Shown here: positions 17,399 to 56,916 of the stretch, piece by piece
Position numbering within the stretch: position 1 is the first letter of the stretch
How the letters are laid out: each line of letters starts with the position of its first letter
Assembly: GCF_028368855.1 (NCBI RefSeq)
Contig: NZ_JAQNCY010000005.1
Span: 186,001-250,000 of the forward strand
Length of the DNA: 64,000 nt
Source: Leisingera sp. SS27
GTDB taxonomy: Bacteria > Pseudomonadota > Alphaproteobacteria > Rhodobacterales > Rhodobacteraceae
Reading direction: 5' to 3'
Translations under genes and position numbers: made by a program
Notes under the pieces: generated by a model
The model's database searches: none
Told to the model about the DNA's origin: nothing
Seen by the model: only the letters and a program-made list of their open reading frames with translations

Positions 17399-17434
17399 TT
17401 GACATTAACCGAATCTGTGGCAGGCTAGGCTTAC
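17399..17434 (+). promoter_or_regulatory. Candidate promoter of the short transcript
   Basis: A perfect -35 hexamer TTGACA lies at 17399-17404. A -10 is less clear: GGCTAG or AGGCTA at normal spacing, TAGGCT at excessive spacing. It immediately precedes the short unit ending in a strong terminator. Confidence 0.45.
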
Positions 17435-17460
17435 ACGAAACATCAGAAAGGAGGTGCCCA

Positions 17461-17538
17461 TTGTCTAGAGAAGCTATGGAGAGCAGTGCCGGAACAGTTC
17501 AGAAGGAGTGCGGCCGAGGCAGCCCTTGGCGCGTATAG
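17461..17538 (+). CDS. Possible 25-residue peptide behind a perfect ribosome-binding site
   Basis: TTG at 17461 lies six bases after GGAGG in AAAGGAGGTG, the strongest ribosome-binding site in the window. The peptide reads MSREAMESSAGTVQKECGRG followed by SPWRV, then TAG. It is not hydrophobic and not an obvious amino-acid attenuation peptide. It resembles nothing I recognise with confidence. The complementary CACCTCC at 17570-17576 could block its translation. Confidence 0.35.
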   Translation: MSREAMESSAGTVQKECGRGSPWRV

Positions 17539-17585
17539 ATACCTGAATTGGTGCTGACCTAACCGGTGCACCTCCTATCATCTCG

Positions 17586-17625
17586 AAGGGCTGTTCCCCG
17601 CGTGTGGAACAGCCCTTTCGATTTT
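17586..17625 (+). terminator. Rho-independent terminator of the short transcript
   Basis: AAGGGCTGTTCC (17586-17597) pairs perfectly with GGAACAGCCCTT (17606-17617) across an 8-base loop, followed by TCGATTTT. Confidence 0.88.
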
Positions 17626-45308: not shown

Positions 45309-45383
<75 letters not shown>

Positions 45384-56841: not shown

Positions 56842-56916
56842 GCCCGGGTAGCTCAGGGGTAGAGCAGTGGATTGAAAATCCTCGTGTCGGTGGTTCGATT
56901 CCGCCCCCGGGCACCA
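56842..56916 (+). tRNA. tRNA-Phe (GAA anticodon)
   Basis: The acceptor GCCCGGG pairs with CCCGGGC, followed by ACCA encoded in the gene. The D arm is TAGCTCAGGGGTAGAGC, the anticodon arm GGATT-GAA-AATCC gives anticodon GAA, and the T arm is CGGTGGTTCGATTCCGC. All arms fold normally. Confidence 0.97.

Follow-up and report, generated by a model that had tools for sequence, protein, structure and literature searches.

A small RNA of Rhodobacteraceae, apparently a divergent homologue of CC2171, with a conserved short reading frame and a fold that ribosome entry may disrupt

In type I toxin mRNAs such as hok and aapA1, the Shine-Dalgarno (SD) sequence of the full-length RNA is closed by a distal 3′ element. 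The RNA described here shares this feature in Rhodobacteraceae, where its SD is likewise predicted to be closed by a distal 3′ element, but it differs from hok and aapA1 in being mostly single copy, in lying at a syntenic locus, and in encoding a peptide that, judged by eye, is not obviously toxin-like. Small RNAs of Caulobacter were reportedly the subject of a tiling-array paper by Landt et al. in 2008, which lay outside the literature covered by our search; within the literature covered, no function was described for this RNA or for CC2171, the Rfam family that it most resembles. Rfam files CC2171 (RF01867) as an sRNA, and the portion of its record available to us does not mention an ORF. 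Rfam 15 reports one further covarying pair for RF01867 (PMC11701678), and an RF01867 RNA of 215 nt, MH_s33, was detected by sequencing in Mesorhizobium huakuii (PMC5596092).

Two other RNAs, rnTrpL of Sinorhizobium and Pos19 of Rhodobacter, are likewise short and carry a small ORF. The excerpted accounts that we compared present rnTrpL as a leaderless trp attenuator product (PMC10117765) and Pos19 as an RpoE-regulon RNA of 219 nt, and those excerpts describe neither an extended SD nor a 3′ fold-back. The Caulobacter sRNAs SisA to SisD contain an anti-SD-like 10-mer, which the available part of the source gives as the likely target-pairing motif (PMC12559287). An anti-SD-like element is common to these sRNAs and to the RNA described here, but in the latter its partner is the RNA's own SD.

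Anatomy, distribution, and relation to CC2171

Within the window (the 64,000-nt stretch of Leisingera sp. SS27 DNA that was analyzed), positions 17399 to 17625 form a self-contained unit consisting of a promoter, an extended SD, a 25-codon ORF, a distal anti-SD element, and a terminator (Table 1), which would be transcribed as a single RNA. The initial annotation had placed here a TTGACA, a near-perfect SD, a TTG codon, a 25-codon frame, an exact 9-nt complement, and a terminator, and the coordinates of all of these were confirmed. Neither the promoter nor the terminator hairpin of the RNA was on the lists returned by a simple promoter scan and a simple terminator scan of the sequence. TTGAC lies 46 to 51 nt upstream of the SD (GAAAGG) in 84 of 111 Rhodobacteraceae loci, indicating that the promoter is conserved. 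The extended SD, GAAAGGAGGTG, occurs twice in the 4.8-Mb draft genome, which is about the chance expectation, and the second copy, judged from its sequence, appears to lie inside a coding region.

Table 1. Coordinates of features of the RNA unit in the window
Feature	Start	End	Strand	Details
Promoter	17399	17427	+	-35 TTGACA at 17399-17404; minimal -10 CAGGCT/AGGCTA at about 17421-17427
Extended SD GAAAGGAGGTG	17446	17456	+	Complementary to the 16S 3′ end
P1 5′ strand, SD core GGAGGTG	17450	17456	+	In the window 9 bp, AGGAGGTGC at 17449-17457
P2, start-codon hairpin	17457	17480	+	17457-17465 with 17472-17480; consensus structure
ORF, 25 codons	17461	17538	+	TTG start at 17461-17463; TAG stop at 17536-17538
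Pseudoknot 5′ strand GAGA	17468	17471	+	P2 loop, codons 3-4; from covariation
P5 5′ strand	17488	17492	+	Partner 17563-17567; 5 of 5 pairs with retained two-sided changes
P3 arm	17495	17550	+	In the window 17495-17502 with 17543-17550; all 5 pairs counted show two-sided changes
P1 3′ strand, anti-SD CACCTCC	17569	17575	+	In the window 9 bp, exact complement GCACCTCCT at 17568-17576
Pseudoknot 3′ strand TCTC	17581	17584	+	Directly 5′ of the terminator; position of the long helix of Rfam CC2171
Intrinsic terminator	17586	17625	+	Hairpin 17586-17618, T tail interrupted; consensus structure

The RNA had been described at first as matching no known class. This held at Rfam gathering thresholds, where a search of the whole window returned no family at the locus; the only matches at that level were tRNA genes at 45312-45383 (minus strand) and 56842-56913 (plus strand). 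In an E-value scan, however, the RNA matched RF01867 across 281 bases at 32.4 bits (E = 1.9e-5), which is below the gathering cut-off of 75 bits, and a stricter whole-genome RF01867 scan reported no match for the source genome. Conversely, a covariance model built from 54 diverse Rhodobacteraceae homologues (R1, whose E-values are rough) matched all 30 RF01867-found loci tested (E ≤ 0.0024), 21 of them better than the best (6.1e-5) of eight opposite-strand terminator matches. In the two alignments of R1 to RF01867 loci that were inspected, agreement was best in the 5′ motif and the terminator. The weaker of the 30 R1 matches might be due in large part to the terminator by itself. Given that the two models recover one another's loci, that a helix between early codons and the segment just before the terminator is shared, and that the score is below the cut-off, the window RNA appears to be a divergent, sub-threshold homologue of CC2171 rather than a formal member of the family, and the claim that it belongs to no RNA class is not supported.

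The likeness to CC2171 consists of the co-located GAAAGGAGGUG and start-codon motif, a helix joining the early ORF to the pre-terminator segment, and the terminator. The Rhodobacteraceae RNAs differ from CC2171 in scoring below its cut-off, in the sequences that form the long-range helix, and in their extra sequestration of the SD, their start-codon hairpin, and their P3 and P5 helices. Of the 289 genomes of the class, RF01867 itself matched 68 at E ≤ 0.01, some of them weakly and nine above the cut-off, with the weakest of these nine doubtful; three of the four Rhodobacteraceae genomes in the class sample were among those matched. Matches in control genomes were to Caulobacter vibrioides and, presumably by chance, to Deinobacterium chartae. 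Identity with 6S RNA was rejected, since the RF00013 match of this genome lies elsewhere and is itself below the cut-off. That 6S RNA candidate (L031, G000:C23:102688-102840) scores 38.9 bits against an Rfam cut-off of 46.4 and would therefore be missed by annotation that applies the cut-off.

Of the outcomes that the initial annotation had named as refuting, a lack of conservation does not apply, since the RNA is conserved in relatives, and a match to a known Rfam family was found only below threshold. Matches at the DNA level were found in all 21 genus genomes searched and in 5 of 40 other relatives. Within the family, 203 of 295 genomes contained a pattern spanning the SD and start codon, GAAAGGAGGTGN{5,6}TGTC, and the reversed control pattern was absent from the matches listed. 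Within the class, 55 of 289 genomes contained the pattern and three contained the reversed control. Genomes had one pattern match each, except for two of the 55 class genomes, which had two. Contig C1 of genome G048 carries two SD-start matches, at positions 805112 and 2922049, a possible duplication. Among the 80 listed of at least 120 matching stretches, some belong to named records outside Alphaproteobacteria, for example Acetivibrio (flagged for contamination), Pedobacter, and Streptomyces, and these are probably chance matches or contamination. At E ≤ 1e-3, R1 matched all but 17 of the 295 family genomes (278), a count that includes 31 matches weaker than 1e-14 (counted by hand) and the 54 training sequences, which match by construction; the latter are 54 of the 70 listed among 97 diversity-filtered references. 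The corresponding R1 figure for the class, 102 of 289 at E ≤ 0.01, is not a prevalence, since many of the matches are short.

Loci L002 to L021 of the window's genus are near-duplicates and were left out of diversity filtering and of the ORF, covariation, promoter, SD-opening, pairing, anti-SD, and neighbor counts; the ORF codon counts (n = 114) and the column-shuffle tests additionally omit L001. Four Rhodobacteraceae loci, L113, L120, L169, and L148, have the SD-start motif but depart from the fold, their ORF or 3′ part being of another kind, and are possibly paralogous or replaced copies; both the QueT and the ArfB neighbors described below are missing at the first three. All four were left out of the promoter count and of diversity filtering but kept in the ORF counts (n = 114) and in the SD-opening and own-versus-other energy tests (n = 115), while L113, L120, and L169 were also left out of the covariation scan and the column-shuffle tests.

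Reading frame and Shine-Dalgarno sequence

Comparison across loci indicates that the short ORF is maintained by conservation and suggests that it is translated. Of the 114 Rhodobacteraceae loci outside the window's genus, 101 have a frame of exactly 18 codons, and in most Rhodobacteraceae this frame starts with GTG. The 101 loci use all three stop codons at codon 19 (TGA 50, TAG 34, and TAA 17). The codon conservation proposed as a check on the frame is found in both its length and its stop position. Among the 111 loci of the column-shuffle tests, which ignore relatedness, codon 19 is a stop in 101, compared with 82.8 ± 2.5 after shuffling, and premature in-frame stops number 0, compared with 9.2. 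The synonymous share is 0.41 in frame and 0.26 and 0.31 in the other two frames, and the in-frame value is only modestly above the column-shuffled null (0.412 versus 0.368). Frames of 18 codons were also present in all eight loci that R1 found and that lack the search pattern. Over a range of 16 to 35 codons, frame 0 reaches a stop in 115 of 115 Rhodobacteraceae sequences, whereas the two alternative frames do so in 40 of 114 and 32 of 115. For other alphaproteobacteria the corresponding counts are 40 of 40 loci in frame 0, the frame of the 41st running off its contig, and 6 of 41 and 14 of 41 in the alternative frames. The window's genus has a TTG start, a shorter 16S match, and CGA at codon 19, giving 25 codons, in 18 of 18 distinct loci. 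When set against L022 to L026, the genus loci L001 to L021 have GTG exchanged for TTG, the 16S match shortened, and the ORF lengthened from 18 to 25 codons.

One explanation for this conservation is that the locus is a gene for a functional micro-peptide of 18 to 25 residues whose expression is restrained by fold-back of the RNA, comparable to fold-inhibited small mRNAs. The constant ORF length, the use of three stop codons at one position, the absence of in-frame stops, and the synonymous share are all consistent with such a gene, as is the N-terminus MSRxxLE(R/K)GVGTV, which recurs across Rhodobacteraceae and has its first 13 residues fairly conserved. However, peptides from other orders are dissimilar (MSHCH..., MSSE...EQPP) even though the layout is retained, and the excess of the synonymous share over its null is modest. 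Furthermore, part of the N-terminal conservation, which keeps the micro-peptide in contention, is imposed by the P2 hairpin and the pseudoknot described below. AGA occupies codon 3 in 93 of 114 loci, and codon 4 varies at its second base but ends in G in 103 of 114, which P2 needs for its pairing. Since these codon choices follow the RNA helices, constraints at the protein and RNA levels are mixed. The TGTC of the search pattern dictates Ser2 in every locus found with it, and residue 2 is His, Val, or Ile in four of the eight pattern-free loci. Altogether, we regard a functional micro-peptide as possible but rather unlikely.

The window's SD is complementary to 11 nt of the 16S tail, with a predicted duplex energy of -22.0 kcal/mol compared with -30.4 kcal/mol for the family consensus. 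Just after the SD, the window's genus has CCCA and most relatives have ATCC or GTCC. Among the Rhodobacteraceae outside the genus, 54 of 114 carry a 15-nt complement of the 16S tail, GAAAGGAGGTGATCC, as do 29 of 41 other alphaproteobacteria, while a further 41 and 4, respectively, have GTCC instead, which places one G-U pair in the 16S duplex. A pattern for the 16S tail matched 5 of 10 genomes (5 of 6 in the genus and 0 of 4 others) and then 1 of 10 (G050) in a second set. The tail reads TGGATCACCTCCTTTC in five of six genus genomes and, over the letters that the pattern covers, in G050, and CTGGATCACCTCCTTTCT was seen in two genus genomes (L324/L325). The pattern was not matched in four further family genomes and four further class genomes, whose rRNA stretches may be missing from the sequence searched. 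Outside the window's genus, apart from G050, the tail to which the SD is matched is thus largely one that we take to be the same.

Consensus fold and long-range pairing

The window RNA has a predicted folding energy of -80.5 kcal/mol (z = -5.4), and 0 of 200 shuffles were as low. RNAalifold gave a single consensus structure comprising the SD/anti-SD helix P1, the start-codon hairpin P2, P5, P3, and the terminator. In the alignment of 54 diverse sequences, the covariation score of the whole structure was 0.232, compared with 0.165 after shuffling (0 of 500), with two-sided changes at 21 pairs, and six control structures slid along the alignment all scored lower (0.061 to 0.166). The covariation shuffles ignore relatedness, and significance is therefore inflated. 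The terminator columns (helix 8) were offset in the covariation count, so that the 64.1% obtained for that helix is an artefact that enters the whole-structure figures, whereas the register in RNAalifold is right. P2 is paired in 93.6% of cells of this alignment, and fewer of its pairs form in the window's own fold. For P3, the arms of one locus pair better with each other than with those of other loci (-12.6 versus -8.3 kcal/mol).

The stem between the SD and its distal complement, for which the initial annotation had proposed a search for paired substitutions, is retained in 97.4% of cells, but its changes are one-sided only, because the SD side, whose core is part of the search pattern, is invariant in this set. 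Its anti-SD variants CAUCUCC, CACCUCC, and CGCCUCC all pair with the SD, and own and other arms differ little in pairing energy (-17.10 versus -16.48). A C(A/G)(C/T)CTCC-like element is present in 99 of 115 Rhodobacteraceae sequences, the pattern having missed 16, and so wide an occurrence might be expected of a trans-acting sRNA that blocks the SD sequences of target mRNAs with an exposed anti-SD, its ORF being vestigial. A regulatory RNA working through this element was one of the two options put forward at the outset. In the consensus, though, the element is base-paired with the SD instead of being an exposed single strand, most other orders are without a closed SD partner, and the ORF is maintained, so we give this option very little credence.

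A covariation scan of 112 sequences revealed a contact between codon 4 and the pre-terminator segment (G-C in 85 of 112 and A-T in 21 of 112; APC z = 16.9). Since this contact crosses P1, it makes a pseudoknot from the P2 loop. All four of its pairs have two-sided changes, 88.9% of cells are paired compared with 77.4 ± 1.7 after shuffling, and the pseudoknot alone accounts for 25 two-sided cells compared with 10.0 (0 of 500). Within Rhodobacteraceae, own-versus-other energy is weakly better (-3.37 versus -2.98), and an own-versus-other test of run length between early codons and the pre-terminator segment gave no signal (4.75 versus 4.76; 113 of 115 sequences), because the arms are too alike there. 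In other alphaproteobacteria, the longest run between codons 3 to 6 and the pre-terminator segment averaged 6.31 within a locus and 4.89 with the segment of another locus (39 of 41 loci, without L086, which is at a contig end, and one locus without a found terminator). The paired sequences are quite different from one another, as in CATTGTC/GACAATG, CATGGTTCAG/CTGACCATG, and ATGAGATT/AATCTCAT. Judged from these comparisons, the core shared across the class appears to be an extended SD, a short ORF, pairing of codons 3 to 6 with the pre-terminator segment, and a terminator.

Closure of the SD itself follows a different distribution. The SD is predicted to be closed in 109 of 115 Rhodobacteraceae sequences, compared with 35% of downstream-shuffled controls, and in 10 of 41 other alphaproteobacteria (L086 included), compared with 53% of shuffles, so that in the latter the SD tends, if at all, to be open more often than expected by chance. 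Because of this difference, the SD lock would be an addition made in Rhodobacteraceae, and characteristic of that family only, rather than a common feature. For Rhodobacteraceae, these predictions, the pairing of both SD and start codon in the consensus, and the conservation of the frame support the initial proposal of a self-contained unit with a fold-gated short frame.

A predicted open SD outside Rhodobacteraceae, codons just after the start held in a helix, a widespread 15-nt complement to 16S rRNA with a duplex of about -30 kcal/mol, and a single pattern match in nearly every genome might also suggest an idealized initiation region that captures 30S subunits as a decoy, the ribosomal counterpart of 6S RNA and RNA polymerase. 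However, such a decoy would not need the conserved stop, its SD would be closed in Rhodobacteraceae, its 16S match is shortened throughout the window's genus, and sightings of the 16S tail are limited to five genus genomes and one further genome; we consider it very unlikely. Distinctly improbable, in our judgment, is a class-wide "6S RNA for ribosomes," in which a mimic of an ideal initiation region would pair with nearly the whole 16S 3′ tail, switch between folded-back and 30S-bound forms, and capture or gauge free 30S subunits, with an extra lock in Rhodobacteraceae.

Neighboring genes and a possible role for translation

A QueT-like gene upstream and ArfB downstream, both on the strand of the RNA, flank 93 of 123 Rhodobacteraceae loci. 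The initial annotation's remark on translation-related neighbors therefore applies to this family, but the arrangement is not conserved elsewhere. Around other loci, no Pfam family was found in more than 2 of 77 flanking proteins, these being 77 of 85 flanking ORFs picked by length, four of them from the Rhodobacteraceae loci L113 and L120, and the top count of 2 applying to the best 25 of 75 families. ArfB lies within 1.4 kb, in divergent orientation, in 2 of 41 other loci, which belong to two other families, adjoining in L086 (G063) and one ORF away in L073 (G219), an arrangement that may reflect chance or ancestral linkage. Linkage to ArfB across the class was rejected, there being none beyond these two loci outside Rhodobacteraceae. 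Some RF01867-positive genomes, such as G039 (97% complete) and G043 (93% complete), have no ArfB match at 1e-10.

In Rhodobacteraceae, 101 of 123 loci have ArfB downstream in the orientation of the RNA, with the terminator in between, and the RNA might therefore be thought a leader or attenuator of arfB. However, the ORF and post-stop segments pair no better with the terminator arm of their own locus than with that of others (-11.98 versus -12.12 and -5.74 versus -5.56 kcal/mol), and we found neither a covarying antiterminator nor a co-directional downstream gene conserved beyond Rhodobacteraceae. Given the lack of a terminator-arm pairing signal and of a common neighbor outside Rhodobacteraceae, a transcription attenuator was rejected, and we regard any role as an arfB leader as extremely improbable.

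The explanation that we prefer, and that we hold to be about evenly balanced between right and wrong, is that the RNA belongs to an alphaproteobacterial family of small RNAs that includes CC2171, and that it is a minimal mRNA that can be either folded or occupied by a ribosome but not both, with translation acting as the switch. From the anatomy we infer how such a switch might operate. A 30S subunit would land on the exceptionally strong SD (11 nt here and 15 nt in many relatives), and the ribosome would translate 18 to 25 codons. When no ribosome is present, codons 3 and 4 (3 to 6 in other orders) would pair with the pre-terminator segment, and in Rhodobacteraceae the distal anti-SD and the start-codon hairpin (P1 and P2) would shut the site further. 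A ribosome entering at the start codon would open the helix that codons 3 to 6 form, while the closed helix would hinder entry or accommodation. During transcription the SD and frame would be made before their 3′ partners, and since they emerge first, an early ribosome could win over folding. It would thus be the act of translation, not the peptide, that sets the form of the RNA, and through its open or closed form the RNA would report or respond to initiation capacity.

We favor translation as the switch over the peptide as the product because the layout persists while peptides differ between orders. Several observations count against this preferred explanation. A pure act-of-translation model does not need the conserved first 13 residues, the pseudoknot is short (4 bp) and within the family its own arms pair only weakly better than those of other loci, and P1 is without two-sided changes while the SD is mostly predicted to be open outside Rhodobacteraceae.

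An RNA filed as a Caulobacter noncoding sRNA has relatives in most of the sampled Rhodobacteraceae genomes and in many other alphaproteobacteria. RNAs of the CC2171 kind combine a conserved short ORF, in many members an SD that matches 15 nt of 16S rRNA, and a fold that an entering ribosome would be expected to break up. Should the switch indeed be ribosome occupancy, these RNAs would be candidates for a direct sensor or buffer of translation initiation.
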